The translations under genes were made by a program, and so were the position numbers. 64,000 bases of DNA from Thermotoga maritima MSB8 (GTDB lineage Bacteria; Thermotogota; Thermotogae; Thermotogales; Thermotogaceae). Where the stretch lies: assembly GCF_000008545.1 (NCBI RefSeq), contig NC_000853.1, positions 634,465-698,464 of the forward strand. The letters are read 5' to 3'. Position 1 is the first letter of the stretch, and each line of letters opens with the position of its first letter. The notes beneath the pieces are model-generated. The model was not told where the DNA came from and searched no databases. It saw nothing but the letters and a program-made list of their open reading frames with translations. This document shows, one piece after another, positions 6,596-38,596 of the stretch.

Positions 6596-7687
6596 TTGAA
6601 GGTTCTTGTCATTGGATATATGCACCCGAGAAACGACAAGAGGGTCTTCAGAACGGTTCAGGCTCTGTCCAAGAGAAGTGAGGTTATTTATCAGTACTGG
6701 ACGGAGAAAGAAGAGCTACCTTTTAAGGAGAATAACATCAGATACATCCCCGTGAAATGTTCGAACAGGGGAAATATTTTCCAGAAAGCCGTTAAAAGAA
6801 AACAAGTCGATGAAAAAATCCGTCATCTCGTAGAAACTGAAGATTACGATATCCTCTACATGCATCACTTTCCGGCTACAAAACCTCTAAAACCCTTCGT
6901 TGTGGCTAAAAAGCGTGGAAAAAAGATTGTCTACGATATACACGAGTATCATCCTCAGAATTTTCTCAGTACTCTTCCCAGGCCTTTGAGTGATCTGAAA
7001 GGATTTGTAATGTGGAGGATATTCAAAAAACAGCTTCAGCTGTCTGACCTGTGTATCTTCGTCTCTGAAGAAACACGGAACGATGTTGTGGCAAAGACCG
7101 GACTGGATCCGGAGAAGACTTTCATTGTACCAAACTACGCATCGATGAAAATCGAACCAGATCCGGATAAAAAGAAAATGGAAATCGTTCTGGTAGGAAA
7201 AACACCGAGAAATCTCATTCACGAAAAGAAACTCATAAGAGCACTTGTTGAAAGAGGATTTTCTTTCAGAATAATAGGAATGGATTCAGAAGCATTTTCT
7301 GATGTTCCGCACACGTACACATCTTTTCTGCCGTACGAAAAGATGATGGAGGAACTCTCAAAAAGCATGTTTTCATTGATATCTTATAAACCTACTGGCA
7401 AAGAAGATAAGAACTATTTGTACTCTTTACCGCACAAGTTCTACGACTCCATCGCTGCCGGAACACCCGTTATCGTGAAGAATTCTTTCGTTTCGATGGC
7501 AAAGATGGTCGAGGATCTGGGAATAGGAGTTGTTATAGACCCGGCAAACGTTGAGGAAAGCCTGAAGAGAATAGAAAATGCATGTCAAAGATACGAAGAG
7601 ATACTGGAGAATATCAGAAGACATCAGGAGGGATTCGTGTGGGACGAGAAGAAGGAAGAAGAATTTCTGGAAAGAGTTATGGGTTGA
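6596..7687 (+). CDS. Glycosyltransferase, GT4-like
   Basis: A 363-residue GT-B glycosyltransferase. I prefer the TTG at 6596 because GAAGGAG (6581-6587) sits at proper spacing; GTG 6587 overlaps that site. The N-terminal domain begins KVLVIGYMHPRNDKRVF, and the C-terminal nucleotide-sugar domain has IVLVGKTPRN and the donor-site region PHKFYDSIAAGTPVIVKN. It overlaps the UDP-GlcNAc 2-epimerase start by four bases (TTGA), so the two probably act on the same ManNAc-containing glycan. The donor and acceptor cannot be read from sequence. Confidence 0.75.
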   Translation: MKVLVIGYMHPRNDKRVFRTVQALSKRSEVIYQYWTEKEELPFKENNIRYIPVKCSNRGNIFQKAVKRKQVDEKIRHLVETEDYDILYMHHFPATKPLKPFVVAKKRGKKIVYDIHEYHPQNFLSTLPRPLSDLKGFVMWRIFKKQLQLSDLCIFVSEETRNDVVAKTGLDPEKTFIVPNYASMKIEPDPDKKKMEIVLVGKTPRNLIHEKKLIRALVERGFSFRIIGMDSEAFSDVPHTYTSFLPYEKMMEELSKSMFSLISYKPTGKEDKNYLYSLPHKFYDSIAAGTPVIVKNSFVSMAKMVEDLGIGVVIDPANVEESLKRIENACQRYEEILENIRRHQEGFVWDEKKEEEFLERVMG

Positions 7688-8763
7688 GAGTACTCTCACT
7701 GGTCGGTGCAAGGCCTCAGATCATAAAAGAGGCGATGCTTCACAGGGAATTCAAAGAAAAGGGGATAGAGGAGATCCTCGTTCATTCCGGACAGCACTAC
7801 GACTACAACATGTCCAGCGTGTTCTTTGAAATTCTTGAGATCAGACAACCTCACTACAATCTCAACGTGGGATCTGGAACCCATGGAGAAATGACGGGAA
7901 AGATCATGATCGAGTTTGAAAAGGTCCTCCTCAGTGAAAAACCTGATCTTGTTCTGGTCTACGGCGACACCAACACGACTCTGTCTGGTGCGCTCGTGGC
8001 TGCAAAACTCAAAATACCTGTCGCCCACGTTGAGGCAGGGTTGAGACAGCATCCCAAAGACATGCCCGAGGAGATAAACAGGATCGTCACAGATCGTGTC
8101 TCTCAGCTTCTTTTCTGTCCGAGCAAACTCGCGGTGAGGAATCTCGAAAGGGAAGGAATCACAGAAGGAGTTTACTTTGTGGGGGATGTAATGTACGATC
8201 TTTTCCTCAAAATGGAGGATAGATTCAGATACGATGTGTTCGAAAAGCTGGGGCTGAAAGAGAACGAATTCGTTCTTGTCACCCTTCACAGGGATTTCAA
8301 CGTGGACGATCCAGTAAAACTGAGAAAGATCCTGGAACAGCTCAAAAGGGTTTCCAGAGAAAAGAAGGTGGTATTTCCCATCCATCCCAGGACGAAAAAT
8401 AGAGTGAAGGAATTCGGTCTTGAAAACCTCCTGGAAGGTATGGTTGTGATAGACCCGGTGGATTATCTGAACCTCATGGGACTTGTAAAAAGGTGCTGGA
8501 AAGTGGTGACAGACAGCGGAGGTCTTCAGAAAGAAGCGTACTTTGCAGGGAAAAGAGCGATAGTCGTGATGCCGGATACGGGCTGGAGAGAACTCGTCGA
8601 AGCAGGCTGGAACAAGTTAGCCAGCGAAGAGAATCTCTTCGACGTGACCATGGAAGAAGACCGTTCGGAATATCCATCAGGACTGTACGGTGACGGAAAC
8701 GCCGCTGGAAAGATCGTTGAGGTGATAGAGGAATGGTTTCGAAGCCTTCGAGGAATTCATTGA
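7684..8763 (+). CDS. wecB: UDP-N-acetylglucosamine 2-epimerase (non-hydrolysing)
   Basis: A 359-residue enzyme that interconverts UDP-GlcNAc and UDP-ManNAc for surface glycan synthesis. The start is taken as TTG 7684, because the family N-terminus is RVLSLVGARPQIIK; the frame upstream overlaps the previous gene and is not family-like. Motifs seen are HSGQHYDYNMS, YGDTNTTLSGALVA, HVEAGLR (catalytic Glu), PEEINR (catalytic Glu and Arg), a THRREN-like TLHRDF and TDSGGLQKEA (UDP contact). It is coupled to the glycosyltransferase upstream. No strong ribosome site is visible at the TTG, which suits translational coupling. Confidence 0.9.
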   Translation: MRVLSLVGARPQIIKEAMLHREFKEKGIEEILVHSGQHYDYNMSSVFFEILEIRQPHYNLNVGSGTHGEMTGKIMIEFEKVLLSEKPDLVLVYGDTNTTLSGALVAAKLKIPVAHVEAGLRQHPKDMPEEINRIVTDRVSQLLFCPSKLAVRNLEREGITEGVYFVGDVMYDLFLKMEDRFRYDVFEKLGLKENEFVLVTLHRDFNVDDPVKLRKILEQLKRVSREKKVVFPIHPRTKNRVKEFGLENLLEGMVVIDPVDYLNLMGLVKRCWKVVTDSGGLQKEAYFAGKRAIVVMPDTGWRELVEAGWNKLASEENLFDVTMEEDRSEYPSGLYGDGNAAGKIVEVIEEWFRSLRGIH

Positions 8764-31407: not shown

Positions 31408-32708
31408 TTATCCCTCCTCAGAGCATCCAAGAATATTTTTTCATATTTCTCTGCTGCTTTTCTGGAGGATAGATTTTCTTCTATGTATCTCCTACCATTC
31501 CTTCCTAATGACTCTCTTAATTCCGGGTTTTTATAAAGGAGAAGAATCTTCTCAGCCAAGGATTTATAATCACCAGCCGGGATGGCAAAACCAGCATTTG
31601 CCTTTTCCACAAGCTTTGGTGCATCACCCTCTAAATTCATGACGGCAATGACAGGTATACCTGCTGACATAATACTCAAAATCTTTGAAGGAACCACAGG
31701 AGTTTTTACATCTTTTGTTAACGTTGCTAGCGAAACATCAGATGAGTGAAGAACCAAAGGATAGATTTCTCTTGGTACTGAGGGAATAAATCTGATATTC
31801 TGTAGGTTCAAACTTTCTGCAAGTTTCTTTGATTCTTCAAGTCTTACACCGTTTCCTACGATGATGAAAACAATATCTTTATACTCTTTCAATTCATTCG
31901 CAGCTCTTATAATCACCTCCATATCTTGTGAAAATCCTAAAGTACCAGCAAAAGATACCACGAACTTTTCTGTTAATCCATGTTTAATGGAAAAGTCATT
32001 TATTTTGTCTCCTGGTTTTATTTCGTTTTCATCCACCCAGTTTTCCATGACAAGTACTTTTCTTCCATCTCCGTTTAAGACGGACTTCACAAATTCTTTA
32101 TTCCTTTCAGAATGGACTGTTATTAAATCAGCAAGCTGATACGCTTTCTTCTCAACTTGTTTAAAAAGCCTTATGAGAAGAGGATTCTTCAGAATACCTA
32201 AATCTATCGCTGCTTGTGGAAATAGATCTTGCACGTTAAGCACAAAGGGAGCATCCTTCAATCTTTTTACTTTCCAAGCAGTTTTGTATAAAGTTATAGG
32301 AGGAGAGTAGACAAGAGAAACATCCACCCTTTTATTTCGAAGGTATTCTTTGGCATAACTAAACATCTTGAGAGCTATTTCGAAATGTTCAACACCTCTC
32401 CGTAACAATTGATGCCTTTCTATGTAAGGTAATCTGACTCTTATAACTTCGATATCAGCACAATCACTTATATTTTCGATAACAAATTTTTTATTCTTCA
32501 TCCTTCTTAGATATTGGTTGTATGTTTCTTTCGGAATGTTATAACGTGGGATTCCAGTAAGAACGGTCACTTCATGTCCTCTTTTTGAAAGTTCTCTGGC
32601 CAGGTAGAAATAGAGGTGGGAAGCTGCTCCTATTTCTGGTGGAAAATAGTTGTTGATCAACAGAATCGATAATTTTCTTTTTTCTTTCACTTCGCCCCTC
32701 TTCTCCAT
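31404..32708 (-). CDS. Glycosyltransferase, GT4 (WbuB-like)
   Basis: A 434-residue GT-B enzyme. The acceptor domain SILLINNYFPPEIGAASHLYF, with the N-terminal PPE-x-GAA pattern, is typical of WbuB-like fucosamine-type transferases. The donor domain has VSFAGTLGFSQDMEVIIRAA and VGNGVRLEE; the donor-site area is PSKILSIMSAGIPVIAV. It overlaps the initiating transferase gene by 22 bases. GTG 32690 is an alternative start that would remove most of this overlap. It probably adds the second sugar of the repeat unit. Confidence 0.8.
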   Translation of the reverse strand: MEKRGEVKEKRKLSILLINNYFPPEIGAASHLYFYLARELSKRGHEVTVLTGIPRYNIPKETYNQYLRRMKNKKFVIENISDCADIEVIRVRLPYIERHQLLRRGVEHFEIALKMFSYAKEYLRNKRVDVSLVYSPPITLYKTAWKVKRLKDAPFVLNVQDLFPQAAIDLGILKNPLLIRLFKQVEKKAYQLADLITVHSERNKEFVKSVLNGDGRKVLVMENWVDENEIKPGDKINDFSIKHGLTEKFVVSFAGTLGFSQDMEVIIRAANELKEYKDIVFIIVGNGVRLEESKKLAESLNLQNIRFIPSVPREIYPLVLHSSDVSLATLTKDVKTPVVPSKILSIMSAGIPVIAVMNLEGDAPKLVEKANAGFAIPAGDYKSLAEKILLLYKNPELRESLGRNGRRYIEENLSSRKAAEKYEKIFLDALRRDK

Positions 32709-33913
32709 AACACAGCCTCCAGTGTCTGCAGGATGATTCGAAGATCAAGAAAGATGTTTCTGTTCTTCACGTACCAGAGGTCGTAACTGAGTTTTTTCTT
32801 CACTTCTTCAAGATTGGAGGAATATTTGTACATGAGTTGTGCCCAGCCGGTGATACCTGGTTTTACCCTGTGTCTCAAACTGTAGAAAGGAATCTGCTTT
32901 TCGAAGATCTTTACGAACTCTTCCTGCTCTGGTCTTGGACCGACAACGCTCATCTCACCTTTCAATACGTTCACAAACTGAAGCGCCTCGTCTATTCTGA
33001 ATGGTCTTATGATTCTTCCAATCTTGAGTATCCTGTCTTTTTCCTGGTCTGCGAACTTCGGTGTTTTCTCCTGCTTTTTCCTCATACTTCTGAGTTTTAG
33101 CATCGTGAATGTTTTCCCATCTTTCCCAACCCTCTTTTGCCTGAACACAACGGGCCTTCCATCTTCCAGGTATATAATTATACCAACAACGAGCATGATG
33201 GGGGAGAAGACAGCAAGGGCGATCAGAGAGACAGCGATGTCCAGGATTCTTTTTGCCGGTGAGTCATCATTCACAGCGCTGAAGCAAACCTCGTAGTACT
33301 CTCTGAACTTTTCCAGGACTTTCATGGGGATTCTCTTCAGGGTTTTTTCCACAAGGTTTGGCAGGTATTCCACACGTTCGATGTTCACCTTCTTCAGAAC
33401 GTCTTCGAACTCTGGGTCTGCAAGAAGGACTCCGTCGTAATGGACGAGTTTTCTTTTCAGAACTTCAACCGTTGGGTTTATGTACTCTGCAAAGCGGTAC
33501 TTTCCCGTCGTTTTTTCTTCTATTTCTTTCAGGATGGGTTCTATTTCTTCTTTTCTTCCCACGACAAGGAACGTTTTTGTGGGCTGGTTTTTGATGAGGA
33601 GTTTTCCAAGAAGGGTGTTCAGAGGAGGGATCAAAACGACAGAGACCAAAAAGTTGTAGAAGAAGTTGTATCGGGTGATGTCTTTTTCGAAGAGGGGATA
33701 GAAGAAAAGGATCAGTATGAAAGAAAAAAGAGTGCCAACAGTTGTTCTTATGATTTGTTCGTTGTAGTTTTGAACATTTTCAAGGTCGTAGAGCCTGAAG
33801 GCAAAGAAAGAAAGTGTCATACACAGCGAAAAGAGTATTCCCACGTACCAGTTAAAAAAAGGGAGGTTGAGTGCAGAAAGCACCACAAGATCGAAGACAA
33901 TCAGTTGATACAA
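32687..33913 (-). CDS. Initiating sugar-phosphate transferase (WbaP/WcaJ-like)
   Basis: A 408-residue polyprenyl-phosphate sugar-1-phosphate transferase. Residues ~1-105 hold four helices, followed by a degenerate CoA-binding-like domain (TFLVVGRKEEIEPIL). The catalytic domain (~220-408) opens with KRILDIAVSLIALAVFSPIML and has RQKRVGKDGKTFTMLKLRSM, the DEALQFVNVLKGEMS segment and the signature VGPRPEQ, then KPGITGWAQ. It loads the first sugar phosphate onto undecaprenyl phosphate and thus starts each repeat unit. It is the first gene of the minus-strand biosynthesis cluster. Confidence 0.9.
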   Translation of the reverse strand: MYQLIVFDLVVLSALNLPFFNWYVGILFSLCMTLSFFAFRLYDLENVQNYNEQIIRTTVGTLFSFILILFFYPLFEKDITRYNFFYNFLVSVVLIPPLNTLLGKLLIKNQPTKTFLVVGRKEEIEPILKEIEEKTTGKYRFAEYINPTVEVLKRKLVHYDGVLLADPEFEDVLKKVNIERVEYLPNLVEKTLKRIPMKVLEKFREYYEVCFSAVNDDSPAKRILDIAVSLIALAVFSPIMLVVGIIIYLEDGRPVVFRQKRVGKDGKTFTMLKLRSMRKKQEKTPKFADQEKDRILKIGRIIRPFRIDEALQFVNVLKGEMSVVGPRPEQEEFVKIFEKQIPFYSLRHRVKPGITGWAQLMYKYSSNLEEVKKKLSYDLWYVKNRNIFLDLRIILQTLEAVLWRRGAK

Positions 33914-33939: not shown

Positions 33940-34350
33940 TTATTCAACACAATTGTAAACATCAAGGCACTTTTCCGCGTACATTGGATCTGTTGCGTAC
34001 CCATATCTTTGAAGAAGCCTGAAGTATTTCTCTGGCTCTTTTCTACACTCCCAGGCTCTATTATAACACTCTTTTATCAGAATCAGGTATGCGATCATAC
34101 TGTTTTCTGGACTGACAAAGGATTGAAACGTGTCGATCGTCTTCACACCGTCGAATTCTTTCGTTTCTGCTCTAACACCACCTTCGAGCCAGGAGAGTTT
34201 CTTTATGCCGAAGAGGTTGTTTCCCACCGTGTGTCTTCCCCAGCCAGTTTCGAGGGCGGACTGGGCAAGAAGGATCTTTCCGTCTATTCCCGTGAGTCTT
34301 TCAAGGAGGAAGGCGCTTTCGCTGAACCTTTCGAGGAACCTTTCCTTCAT
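33940..34350 (-). CDS. GH73-type peptidoglycan hydrolase (FlgJ/LytG glucosaminidase-like)
   Basis: A 136-residue single-domain protein that matches the glucosaminidase fold of FlgJ and Lyt[17 protein letters not shown] (catalytic Glu within ALETGWG), NNLFGIK, and a C-terminal [13 protein letters not shown]. There is no signal peptide and no binding domain, so export would need a holin, another route or lysis. It follows a terminator hairpin and sits at the end of a module with a sigma-like protein and DUF1659/DUF2922 genes. Phage- or sporulation-like lysis modules use similar enzymes. Confidence 0.8.
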
Positions 34351-34371
34351 GATATCACCTCCAGAAAGAAA

Positions 34372-34388
34372 GCGGGGGAGACCCCCGC
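34372..34388 (-). terminator. Terminator hairpin between sigma-like and GH73 genes
   Basis: A 7-bp GC stem (GCGGGGG/CCCCCGC) with a 3-base loop is followed on the minus strand by TTTCTTTCT. It ends three bases from the sigma-like gene's stop and about 20 bases before the GH73 start, so the hydrolase may be made by read-through. Confidence 0.65.
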
Positions 34389-34390
34389 CT

Positions 34391-34753
34391 TCAGAGATTT
34401 TCTTCTTCGAAGTCCATCAGTTCGCAGCGTGATTTGTACTCTGTTTTCAGAATGTCGAACGGAGCGTCGCTGCATCCCGGGAGAGGGATCCCCTGAATGA
34501 GGTCGATCACTTTTCTGTTTATGGTGGATTTCAAATGAGCGGAGAAGCTTCCTTTGTCCTTGTTCCATGTTTTACGAGCATAGCAGAAGATAGAGCATAT
34601 CGCCTGGTAGAGATCTTCGAAGGAAGAAATCTTTTCCCTGAACTTTTCGAAAAAGAATCCTGCTTTCTTTCTTATCTCGTTCTGGTATCTTTCGTAGAGT
34701 TCATCGATGGTGAGTTCTTCGTCTTTCAGTTTCTTCGTATTTCTCTTAGGCAT
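34391..34753 (-). CDS. Sigma-70 region 2-like protein
   Basis: A 120-residue basic protein. Residues ~25-90 follow the pattern of sigma region 2: a helix of aromatic and basic residues ([12 protein letters not shown]), then [19 protein letters not shown], then the KG-x-F-x-AHL-x(6)-R-x(3)-D-x-I segment ([19 protein letters not shown]) seen in ECF and phage-type sigma factors. There is no region 4 (no HTH at the end), so it may need a partner or may not recognise a -35. It overlaps the small acidic gene upstream by eight bases. Confidence 0.6.
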
Positions 34754-34979
34754 TGTTCCACACCCGATCGTTGAAGAAGTCCACCACGAAGTCTATGGCG
34801 TAGTCCAGGATGTGATCTAAGATATCGTAGTCGAAGGGAAGGTCGATTCCGAAGCTGTCGAAGAGACCGAAGACGATCTCTTTCACTTCCTCCTTCTTGG
34901 ACTCACCGTCCCCCGGTCTTTCGACCAGGGAGACGGCGAGCGGGAGGACGTCCTTGAGAAATGGAAGTATTGTCATCAT
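34746..34979 (-). CDS. Small acidic protein of unknown function
   Basis: A 77-residue product (ATG 34979, GGGAGGG upstream). It starts with a hydrophobic stretch (TILPFLKDVLPLAVSLV), then a charged linker, then an acidic helical tail (ILDHILDYAIDFVVDFF). I do not recognise the family. The size, an N-terminal hydrophobic helix and the place beside a murein hydrolase could suit a holin-like or membrane-associated accessory role, but this is inference. Confidence 0.5.
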   Translation of the reverse strand: MMTILPFLKDVLPLAVSLVERPGDGESKKEEVKEIVFGLFDSFGIDLPFDYDILDHILDYAIDFVVDFFNDRVWNNA

Positions 34980-34997
34980 ACAGACGCCCTCCCTTCG

Positions 34998-35207
34998 TCA
35001 GTGAATTAGATCAAAGAATTCGTTTGAGTTCGTTTCGACTATCACTGCTCTGTCGATCGCGTAGCCTTCCAGAACTTTTGAGTCCAGAAGCGTCTGCATG
35101 GCTGTCTGAACCTGATCCGCTGTGAGTCCGTCAGCTGGGCTGTTGACTATTATTCTTCTTCTCTTCCCTTCTGCCTCATTGTAAAAATCCATGTACAGTC
35201 TCTTCAT
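34998..35207 (-). CDS. DUF2922-family small protein
   Basis: A 69-residue protein with the DUF2922 outline: a short beta-rich start (KRLYMDFYNEAEGKRRRIIV), then LTADQVQTAMQTLLDSKV and a final strand RAVIVETNSNEF. The family is found in Firmicutes and Thermotogae, commonly beside DUF1659 genes as far as I recall, and its function is unknown. It has GAGGAGGTG ahead of the ATG. It lies 14 bases downstream of the DUF1659 gene. Confidence 0.7.
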   Translation of the reverse strand: MKRLYMDFYNEAEGKRRRIIVNSPADGLTADQVQTAMQTLLDSKVLEGYAIDRAVIVETNSNEFFDLIH

Positions 35208-35221
35208 ACCACTTCACCTCC

Positions 35222-35415
35222 TCATATGGTTTCGTACGTGACGAGCTGAGCGGAAACGTAAGTGTAGCTCGAGAGAGAGTCGAGGGTGTTCACCGCGTTC
35301 GCAAGATCCTGTCTGTCGCATTTGGACTGACGGAGATGGTCTGTCTCCTCGTTACGGGGTTTCCGTTTTCGTCCACTTCACCTGTTGCCCACACGATCCT
35401 GAGGGCCTTTTCCAT
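35222..35415 (-). pseudogene. DUF1659-family small protein, interrupted by a one-base shift
   Basis: From ATG 35415 (AGGAGGTG upstream) the frame gives EKALRIVWATGEVDENGNPV, then TISVSPNATD, a DUF1659 N-terminal half, and ends early at a TGA. A -1 shift within the GACAGGATC near 35311 restores the expected second half (DLANAVNTLDSLSS, then YVSAQLVTYETI) and a natural stop at 35222. One missing base explains this. Options are decay, a sequence error, or a programmed -1 shift at GAC. Confidence 0.7.
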
Positions 35416-35578
35416 GATAACACCTCCTGTGAATTTTTTGTGGACTGCGCAGCCCCTCCAATAAATAAGTCCTGACAGGGATGTTAAATCACATATAAAA
35501 TTTTGTATATTCAACATATTAGTGAATAAAAATCGCTAAGCGAATTATTTCTGGTTCGGTCTTTTTTCAGACGTAAGG

Positions 35579-35617: not shown

Positions 35618-38596
35618 ATGAAAAGAGCGCTGATCTTTCTGTTTCTTCTGATTGCGGTGTTTTCTCTGTCCTACACCATAAGAAAGGGAGACGTTTTGAG
35701 GATCGAAGTGGTGGGATACCCAGATCTGACGAGAAGTTGCGCAGTGGACATAGAAGGTGCGATCACGTTTCCGTACGTGGGACGTGTGAAGGTGGAAGGC
35801 CTCAGCGTGGATCAGGTGACAGATCTCCTCAAAGAGAGGCTCTCCAGGAGTTTTTCTGAACCTGAGGTGATCGTGTCTCTTCAGCAGATTGCTCCAAGGA
35901 ACGTCTACGTCTCCGGTGTTGTGAACAGAGTGGTGAACATGGGAATAGAAGATCTCAGCGTTTCCGAGCTTCTCTCTCTTCTTTCTGTGGATCTTTCCTC
36001 CGTTGATCTTTCGAAGGTGAAGGTTTTGAGAGATGGGAAGGTTTTTGAACTGGATCTCTCCTCGCTTCTCTGGGGTGAAGCTCCCGAGAAAGACGTGATG
36101 CTCCAGGAGAACGATCAGGTGATACTCCCGGAAAAGAGCTACACGGAGTTCGTGAAGATCGTTGGAGCTGTGTCAAAACCAGGTATTTACCCCTACAGAA
36201 GGGAGATGACCTTGCTCGACGCTGTAGCGGCAGCGGGCGGTACCACGCAGGAGAGTTCAGGAAAGATAATCGTCCTTTCGAAAGACGAGACGGTTGAAGT
36301 ATCGGAGAAAGATATCTATCAAAAGAACCTCCTTTTGAAACCAGGAGACACGGTCCACGTTCAAAAGATCGACGAGAGGTTCGCCTACGTTGTGGGAGCG
36401 GTGGCAAGACCGGGAATGTACACCTTCTCCAGAGAAGAGTCTCTCACGCTCAAAAATCTCATCGCAAAAGCCGGCGGAGTCTCCGTCGATAAAAGGTTCA
36501 TCGAGAAGGCCCTCATCACAAGAGGTGGAGAAACTCTCGAGTACGACCCGGACGTTCTGGACGAAAACGTTGAGATAGAAGTCGGCGACGTGGTCGAGAT
36601 AAAGAAGTTCGAAAAGACAGAAGTCTATGTTTCCGGATACGTTTCAAGGCCCGGGGTTTACGAGATCTCCCCAAAAGAGAACGTGACCCTGGAAAAGCTC
36701 CTCTCCATGGCAGGAGGCATAAAGGGTACTCTGGAAGAGGTCGACAGCATCGTCGTGACAAGAGATGGCAGTGTGATCACACTCTCACCGAACAATCTGG
36801 ATTTTTCTGTGAAGCCAGGAGACGTGGTGAACGTGAAAGAGTTCGTCCCGAAGAAGGCCTACGTACTGGGATACGTGAGAAATCCGGGGCTTTACACCTT
36901 CGGAAAGAACGAGGCGTTCACCCTGAGAAACCTCATCGCAAAGGCGGGGGGCTTCGTTGACGAAGGCCAGGTCGTGTCCGTGAAGGTGGCAGGAAAGGAG
37001 TACTCCCCGGACGAGATCGTAAAGGAAGACATCTTGCTCGAAGATGGTGTGTTCGTCTACGTGGAGAGGTATACGGACAGGTTCGTCTACATGGTGGGAG
37101 ACAACGTCTCAAGGAATGGAAAGATGAGTTTCGAGAAGGAAGAACCCTTCACACTTTCGACCGCTCTTAAAAAGTACGGGATCGAGGACTTCTCTTTGAT
37201 AAAGAGCCTTTCGCTTTTGAGGAATGGCAGAGAGATGACTTTCGATCCGGAAAAGATCCTCACAGAAGACGTTCCCCTCGAAAAGGGTGACACGATCCTT
37301 GTGAGAACGGTTCAGACAAAGAGGGTCTACTTCACAGGGGACGTGTACGGCTACGTTGACTTTGCAAAGGACGAGGATATCACACTGGAAAAGGCGCTCG
37401 CAAGGTTTGGAAAGGTTCAGAGAAAGTACATCGCAGGTTTGAAGGTGATCATGGATGGAAGGGTTCAGAAGTTCGATGAACTTGTGGATGTTCCGCTTGA
37501 AGACGGTGCGGTTGTTGAACTGAATCTGAAGGAGTCGATCAGGGTCTACGTGGACGGCTTTGTGAGAGCACCCCAGATGGTCGTGTTCGAGCCGGACGAA
37601 ACTCCCGTGCTCGACAGGGCGATCGTGAAGGCAGGAGGTTACAGAGAAGACACACTCTTTGAGGCAGGAAACATAACTGTTCTGCGAGACGGCCACGAGA
37701 TCACCGTTCCAAAAGAGCAGACAAGTTCCTTTGAACTCGAGGATGGAGATCTTGTCTTTGTGAAGTACAGAGAAAAAACCCACGTGTACGTCTTCGGTGA
37801 AGGGATCACGAACACACTCGTGACCTTCGAGGACGAAGAGACTCCCACTCTGAGGAGCGTTCTTGGAAAGGTCGGTGGTGTGAAGAGCACGGGCTCTGAG
37901 AGGATAGTCGTTGTGAAACCGGACGGCGAAAAAGAAGAGGTGGACTACGAAGAGGTGATAAAAACAGGTGGCCCCGTTCTTGAAAGCGGCAGTGTGGTCT
38001 TCGTGCCCCTTGAGACGGAGAACTTTGCCTACGTGGTCGGAGAGGTGGCACGTCCAGGAGCGTACGAGTTGAAAGGAGACGTGACGCTTCTCAAACTCAT
38101 CGCACAGGCAGGTGGCCTGAGCAACTGGGCACTGAGAACGAAGGTGATCTTGAGAAGAGGAGAGAAAGAGTTCACCTACGACTTCACCAGCATCGAAGAG
38201 GTCCAGAACGTGAAGGTGGAGCCAGGAGATGTGGTGTACGTGCCACCCGTTGAGACGAACTACGTGTACGTTCTTGGAAACGTGAAAAACCCCGGCATTG
38301 TGAAGGTGGACAGGTATTCCACCGTGTTCGATGTGGTGATGAGGGCAGGAGGCTTCACAGAGAAAGCGGCAGCAAGCAGGATCTTCCTCTTCAGGGGAGG
38401 GCCGCAGGGAGAGGTGACCGTCTGTGATCTTTCTGGAGTTTTGTCTGGAAAAGGTGGTGGAGTGAACCTGAACGTTTCGCCGGGTGATGTGGTCTTCGTT
38501 CCGGACAACCCGCTCATACAGGTGACAGAGGCACTCTCCATCGTGAACACCATATTCAGCACTATAAGAAACGTCAAAGACGTGATGGGGTGGTAA
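35618..38596 (+). CDS. Polysaccharide export protein with tandem SLBB domains
   Basis: A 992-residue exported protein. Residues 1-18 are a signal peptide; residues ~19-90 are a Wza-type polysaccharide export domain (TIRKGDVLRIEVVGYPDL). There follow about 11 SLBB-like repeats of ~80 residues, each recognisable by a strand such as AYVVGAVARPGMY, then a TL-x-LIAKAGG-like turn. Ordinary Wza-like proteins carry one or two SLBB units. No C-terminal amphipathic helix is seen, only a short amphipathic tail (SIVNTIFSTIRN). It probably forms a periplasm-spanning conduit or scaffold for the glycan under the Thermotoga toga. GAGGAGG precedes the ATG; the next gene starts one base after its stop. Confidence 0.85.
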   Translation: MKRALIFLFLLIAVFSLSYTIRKGDVLRIEVVGYPDLTRSCAVDIEGAITFPYVGRVKVEGLSVDQVTDLLKERLSRSFSEPEVIVSLQQIAPRNVYVSGVVNRVVNMGIEDLSVSELLSLLSVDLSSVDLSKVKVLRDGKVFELDLSSLLWGEAPEKDVMLQENDQVILPEKSYTEFVKIVGAVSKPGIYPYRREMTLLDAVAAAGGTTQESSGKIIVLSKDETVEVSEKDIYQKNLLLKPGDTVHVQKIDERFAYVVGAVARPGMYTFSREESLTLKNLIAKAGGVSVDKRFIEKALITRGGETLEYDPDVLDENVEIEVGDVVEIKKFEKTEVYVSGYVSRPGVYEISPKENVTLEKLLSMAGGIKGTLEEVDSIVVTRDGSVITLSPNNLDFSVKPGDVVNVKEFVPKKAYVLGYVRNPGLYTFGKNEAFTLRNLIAKAGGFVDEGQVVSVKVAGKEYSPDEIVKEDILLEDGVFVYVERYTDRFVYMVGDNVSRNGKMSFEKEEPFTLSTALKKYGIEDFSLIKSLSLLRNGREMTFDPEKILTEDVPLEKGDTILVRTVQTKRVYFTGDVYGYVDFAKDEDITLEKALARFGKVQRKYIAGLKVIMDGRVQKFDELVDVPLEDGAVVELNLKESIRVYVDGFVRAPQMVVFEPDETPVLDRAIVKAGGYREDTLFEAGNITVLRDGHEITVPKEQTSSFELEDGDLVFVKYREKTHVYVFGEGITNTLVTFEDEETPTLRSVLGKVGGVKSTGSERIVVVKPDGEKEEVDYEEVIKTGGPVLESGSVVFVPLETENFAYVVGEVARPGAYELKGDVTLLKLIAQAGGLSNWALRTKVILRRGEKEFTYDFTSIEEVQNVKVEPGDVVYVPPVETNYVYVLGNVKNPGIVKVDRYSTVFDVVMRAGGFTEKAAASRIFLFRGGPQGEVTVCDLSGVLSGKGGGVNLNVSPGDVVFVPDNPLIQVTEALSIVNTIFSTIRNVKDVMGW

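Follow-up and report, generated by a model that had tools for sequence, protein, structure and literature searches.

The window analysed here comprises 64,000 nucleotides of DNA from Thermotoga maritima MSB8 and contains, at positions 33940-35415, five small genes that all lie on the minus strand. A check of open reading frames, coordinates, strand and Pfam calls agrees with the initial annotation, which had described five small co-directional genes. The most 5' of them (35222..35415, minus strand) encodes a DUF1659 protein that matches Pfam PF07872 at 7.8e-10 when read across a frameshift, with X placed at the break. The gene had been called broken, and the frameshift was located at about 35320, in the T. 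maritima sequence only; six aligned relatives are intact. Next are the gene for a 69-amino-acid DUF2922 protein (34998..35207, minus strand; PF11148, 9.5e-16) and P77 (34746..34979, minus strand), a putatively holin-like protein of 77 amino acids with the motif VE.PG.GE.KK. These are followed by SIG2 (34391..34753, minus strand), a 120-amino-acid protein comprising sigma-70 region 2 only, and by a GH73 N-acetylglucosaminidase (33940..34350, minus strand). Outside the cassette, a bacterial sugar transferase of an exopolysaccharide cluster (32687..33913, minus strand; PF02397, 1.9e-63) flanks GH73, and an SLBB/Poly_export polysaccharide export protein (35618..38596, plus strand; PF02563, 6.9e-20; PF22461, 4.2e-75) is transcribed divergently from the other end. 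This export protein has 992 amino acids and many SLBB repeats, and its upstream region is common with that of the cassette.

Hydropathy analysis found no hydrophobic segments in DUF1659 or DUF2922. Both are predicted to adopt a beta-beta-alpha-beta fold (pLDDT 88 for DUF1659, modelled on the Clostridia homologue at locus L126, and pLDDT 91 for DUF2922), although profile comparison gave a probability of 1.2% and they were rejected as detectable homologues. Fold searches returned no significant structural relative of either protein; the best match of DUF2922 was the RNA polymerase subunit YkzG (4njc; E 0.28, non-significant), and YkzG, p56 and phi29 p6 were all discarded as noise-level matches. 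The C-terminal tail of DUF2922 is conserved and was modelled with low confidence in the monomer, a combination that a binding tail would be expected to show. Literature searches on the DUF families, TM0633-TM0637 and biofilm links yielded no description of the cassette beyond enzyme work on TM0633, and the cassette is apparently undescribed so far.

Distribution of the cassette and its gain and loss

Within Thermotogota, DUF2922 is present in 82 of 103 genomes and DUF1659 in at least 61, with HMMs trained on the phylum finding more; SIG2-like proteins occur in at most 68 genomes, a tally into which weak matches to ordinary sigma factors also enter. The genes recur in the order DUF1659-DUF2922-P77-SIG2, as a conserved operon, in different Thermotogota families, and the recurrence of these four in the same order across the phylum puts the arrangement far beyond chance. 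Genome contigs were also probed with an approximate DUF2922 family consensus, which served only to pull loci; DUF2922 was identified at each locus by an HMM iterated from Thermotogota sequences, the alignment of the whole family being too diverse for scanning. This yielded 53 loci with DUF2922, mostly from Clostridia, Bacilli and Atribacterota. DUF1659 lies 5' of DUF2922 in nearly all loci of sufficient length, and the small membrane protein YvrJ is encoded in most. Plasmids of Lactobacillus and Vagococcus carry DUF2922, YvrJ and a recombinase, with a DUF1659-type neighbour in several; those of Lactobacillus add SSB, and a LysM protein or Amidase_3 is found on some plasmids. The expectation that these families would co-occur outside Thermotoga was thus borne out for DUF1659-DUF2922, which are linked in Clostridia, Bacilli, Atribacterota and plasmids of Lactobacillales, and this pair is the invariant core of the cassette. 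Three small Lactobacillus plasmids (L092, L093 and L096), which may form a plasmid family of their own, combine a DUF1659-type gene, DUF2922, a Cys-rich zinc-ribbon-like protein and YvrJ with a tyrosine recombinase, SSB and Rep.

The five genes are gained and lost as one unit. One Thermotoga genome (G096; L181, 42-1501) has a precise empty site, where the sugar transferase directly adjoins the SLBB gene and all five genes are gone, and family and alignment searches found no DUF1659, DUF2922, SIG2 or GH73 elsewhere in this genome. The empty site rests on locus comparison, as a whole-genome DNA search for the cassette was uninformative alone. The other Thermotoga genomes and genome G090 have a single GH73, located beside the cassette, and within Thermotogota an adjacent GH73 was found only in these. 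The empty site, the co-absence and the single GH73 beside the cassette therefore place GH73 within the unit in the genus Thermotoga. The divergent arrangement with the SLBB gene is likewise kept in this genus, and exopolysaccharide-type genes lie within 6.5 kb of the cassette at 29 of 61 Thermotogota loci, compared with 2 of 53 elsewhere. Decayed second copies of the cassette were seen at L055 (G093, about 7049-7774) and L196 (G064, 2652-2819). Because the L055 copy sits in another polysaccharide cluster, horizontal movement of the cassette with such clusters is suggested.

Wall hydrolases, P77 and sigma-type regulators

The hydrolase in the window matches the Glucosaminidase family (GH73; PF01832) at 1.8e-22, is the sole Pfam GH73 match in the T. 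maritima genome and is identical to TM0633 (PDB 4QDN; 136/136 match), for which N-acetylglucosaminidase activity has been reported (PMC8943055). No signal peptide was seen, and its initial description as signal-less agrees with hydropathy analysis, in which the N-terminus has no strongly hydrophobic stretch. The structure was deposited as FlgJ; it is the identical protein, but its genomic context is the cassette, which lends no support to a flagellar FlgJ role. The structurally solved TM0633 would thus be moved from the 'FlgJ' label to an envelope-opening context. In other phyla, M15_3 peptidases, Amidase_2 and Amidase_3 (Pfam) occupy a similar position. Together, four unrelated peptidoglycan-hydrolase families gave 30 matches at distances of up to 2.5 kb, each on the same strand as the cassette, and one further out; the families were chosen for recurrence near the cassette, which inflates this near/far ratio and leaves the strand agreement unaffected. 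About five separate associations were counted, the hydrolase-bearing lineages being related rather than independent, and a hydrolase is absent from 31 of the 53 loci of the genome-contig set.

Evidence on P77 comes mainly from its family. The holin family phrog_6918 was matched by 18 of 29 members (best 7.9e-5) and the LLH holin family PF09682 weakly by nine of the 29 (best E-value 0.013), with all 29 falling short of the curated cut-off; the window's own P77 matched neither of these nor any Pfam family. A clearer holin from Atribacterota matches the same phrog_6918 family at 3.1e-9, and its direct profile-profile match to P77 is weak. Holin-family matches in these cassettes involve P77 members, YvrJ and the Atribacterota protein. 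Residues 1-19 of P77, with a best 19-residue hydropathy of 1.71, are hydrophobic enough for a membrane segment. P77 thus resembles LLH holins in its recurrent weak matches and in the clearer member found in Atribacterota cassettes, but it is shorter, scores below the curated cut-off and has a single marginal hydrophobic segment; a holin-like nature is weakly suggested.

SIG2 had been called a sigma-type factor with region 2 only, and the call withstood profile searching: Pfam Sigma70_r2 (PF04542) was matched at 3.3e-8, above the family cut-off, and FliA in the PDB at 4.7e-7. Region 2.2 keeps its DLxQ motif in SIG2, and this motif is almost invariant in the family alignment; the family also has a conserved PP....PFT.L tail. 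A region-4-only partner was found neither in the T. maritima cassette nor, as far as recognisable, elsewhere in the genome, where candidates were ordinary sigma factors or, where inspected, XRE-type regulators. The region-2-only form looks reduced, since one Thermotogota family keeps a SIG2 homologue with an extra C-terminal HTH. Other lineages place different regulators at the cassette. At the Atribacterota loci L133 and L143 a split sigma is encoded beside the cassette by two genes, one for region 2 and one for region 4 (E 1e-10), whereas Clostridium cassettes have a complete sigma factor close by. ComK-family regulators adjoin DUF1659-DUF2922 cassettes at four Clostridia loci (L099, L115, L118 and L126), of which only L118 passes the Pfam cut-off (PF06338, 1.3e-6), the other three being its homologues. 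The cassette brings YvrJ and holins together with wall hydrolases and with unusual sigma or ComK regulators.

The closest parallel for the regulator is the two-part sigma SigO-RsoA of Bacillus subtilis, in which sigma region 2 also occupies its own polypeptide. The SigO-RsoA regulon includes yvrJ. Likewise, Atribacterota cassettes have a separate region-4 partner adjoining, and the YvrJ family appears in the same setting; by contrast, T. maritima has no recognised region-4-only partner and no YvrJ was found in Thermotogota cassettes. Neither DUF1659 nor DUF2922 was found in the B. subtilis control genome. SIG2 genes also occur alone (L151-L160 and L162), in several copies per genome in places, and many of these have the element GTATAC-N4-GTATAC with no DUF cassette near.

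Candidate promoter, operator and terminator

Gibbs sampling of upstream regions recovered GTATAC-N4-GTATAC upstream of DUF1659 in several families (motif score 897 vs 534 for shuffled sequence), and the element also lies 5' of P77-SIG2 operons and single SIG2 genes that are detached from the cassette. Exact copies were found at 11 sites in 20 genomes, and by its coordinates every one lies a short distance 5' of a cassette or SIG2 gene. When up to one mismatch over 19 positions was allowed, 19 of 20 sites in 45 genomes were at a cassette, a SIG2 gene or a decayed DUF1659 copy. The sole near-exact site elsewhere (L197, G077, about 2545) falls where a DinB-like polymerase gene begins. Such placement at cassette and SIG2 genes points to auto-regulation of the cassette. 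In the g10 genus (L035-L038) no element was seen 5' of DUF1659. The exact element is not preserved in the genus Thermotoga, where another palindrome and a GGAG-hairpin block are conserved instead. In the window this block, a 5' hairpin-forming sequence with a GGACTTATTTATTGGAG-type block (35442..35482, minus strand), is kept across the genus and is a candidate promoter and transcript start. It is likely the counterpart of the ..GTATACTATATTATGGGAG..CTCCC region elsewhere in Thermotogota, the two having been compared by eye. The palindrome TATTCA-N9-TGAATA (35508..35528, unstranded) sits between the cassette and the divergent SLBB gene, is also kept across the genus and is a candidate operator.

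Between SIG2 and GH73 lies a G+C-rich hairpin (34372..34388, minus strand), for which folding of a 76-nt stretch gave -28.2 kcal/mol (z -1.9). Of the terminator previously proposed here the hairpin stands, but it is a weak terminator at most. Since its T-run is interrupted and a terminator scan did not report it, transcription is likely to read through into GH73, and a terminator isolating GH73 was rejected.

Proposed envelope opening and competing explanations

The best reading of the locus, a tentative one with slightly less than an even chance, would be an auto-regulated, sigma-controlled cassette that opens the cell envelope. In this mechanism, SIG2 would join RNA polymerase, either by itself or together with a region-4 partner encoded elsewhere, and drive its own operon. 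P77 would then act on the cytoplasmic membrane, allowing the signal-less hydrolase to pass through and, by its reported activity, to cut glycan strands locally. The small, presumably cytosolic DUF1659 and DUF2922 proteins would either pass through as well or form a working part that sets the time and place of opening. Several findings count against this reading: the window's own P77 matches no family and the profile match to the Atribacterota holin is weak, hydrolases are missing from many loci, T. maritima has no recognised region-4-only partner, the GTATAC element is not kept in the genus Thermotoga and was not seen in the g10 genus, DUF1659 is frameshifted in T. maritima, and no fold match accounts for DUF1659 or DUF2922. 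The switch for cell-wall opening put forward in the initial annotation gains strong comparative support from the sigma profile, the spread outside Thermotoga and the recurring non-homologous hydrolases; opening in vivo stays a prediction from sequence. The setting in Thermotogota is likely to be biofilm or surface remodelling, because the cassette there often sits in exopolysaccharide clusters.

A known system of the same plan comprises the sigma factor UviA, the holin UviB, an amidase and a signal-less bacteriocin (PMC9527704), and because of this match the cassette is filed as a variant of holin/hydrolase release modules. Both the Clostridium UviA-UviB-amidase-Bcn5 system and the cassette combine a dedicated sigma, a small membrane protein of holin type (a putative one in the cassette), a peptidoglycan hydrolase and signal-less co-encoded protein(s), and both are chromosomal or plasmid-borne. 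They differ in that the cassette has a sigma of region 2 only, P77 as the holin-like part, GH73 as the hydrolase, and DUF1659 and DUF2922 instead of a bacteriocin. By analogy, the DUF pair is probably cargo or a working part of a release module. Type 10 (holin/endolysin) secretion, as in Serratia chitinase export, similarly clusters non-phage holin-like and peptidoglycan hydrolase genes, but the cassette has no Sec-exported cargo enzyme or recognised spanin and includes a sigma factor.

The initial annotation also proposed a domesticated phage late (lysis) module, which now appears very improbable. GH73, M15_3 and the LLH-type holin do match phage lysis families, but a resemblance to phage lysis genes is limited to the hydrolase and the holin-like part, no phage structural genes were recognised nearby and conservation spans a phylum. 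Furthermore, the queries run against 50,697 phage records and IMG/VR, among them the probe that found the 53 cellular loci, recovered neither DUF1659 nor DUF2922; two small PHROGs families (phrog_20302 and phrog_21372) do match DUF1659/DUF2922. Competence or fratricide offers a different model, in which the envelope is opened for DNA uptake or for release to kin under competence-type regulators. This DNA-exchange explanation is unlikely, but draws on the ComK-family proteins directly beside the cassettes at L118, L099, L115 and L126, seven loci with SSB genes close to the cassette, the tyrosine recombinase found with SSB and Rep on Lactobacillus plasmids, and the likening of a two-part sigma to the sigmaX-ComW competence pair (PMC7218084). 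However, ComK adjacency is limited to a few Clostridia, and no competence genes were recognised next to Thermotogota cassettes, the neighbours of which are exopolysaccharide genes.

Those same neighbours speak for programmed lysis, whereby a lysing subpopulation would release DNA and protein into the exopolysaccharide of the flanking cluster as biofilm matrix. The excess of exopolysaccharide-type genes at Thermotogota loci and the divergent SLBB arrangement conserved in the genus fit this idea, yet the cassette and surface clusters may simply have moved together by horizontal transfer, given the decayed L055 copy, and the cassette is also found on plasmids and in Bacilli that lack exopolysaccharide genes or hydrolases; its probability is low. 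Still less probable is that DUF1659 and DUF2922 are RNA-polymerase or anti-sigma accessories of SIG2, with the hydrolase linkage incidental. Sigma factors are frequently linked to the DUF pair and YkzG is the best DUF2922 fold match, but that match is non-significant, g10 genomes have SIG2 without the DUFs nearby, and the four unrelated hydrolase families beside the cassette are left unexplained.

The envelope-opening reading offers a testable role for DUF1659 and DUF2922, widespread families that the open-access literature does not describe as a system. It could be extended, more doubtfully, to a multi-phylum release apparatus: a DUF1659-DUF2922 core exported via a holin-like protein and exchangeable wall hydrolases, perhaps to assemble extracellularly, and switched by a sigma that has shrunk to region 2 in Thermotogales and still controls a dedicated palindromic promoter. 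If true, a sigma that comprises region 2 only and has a conserved cis-element of its own would represent a minimal sigma factor in nature. Among individual DUF2922 proteins, that of Enterococcus gilvus (L094:5728-6330) carries a long C-terminal extension that is proline-rich and basic.
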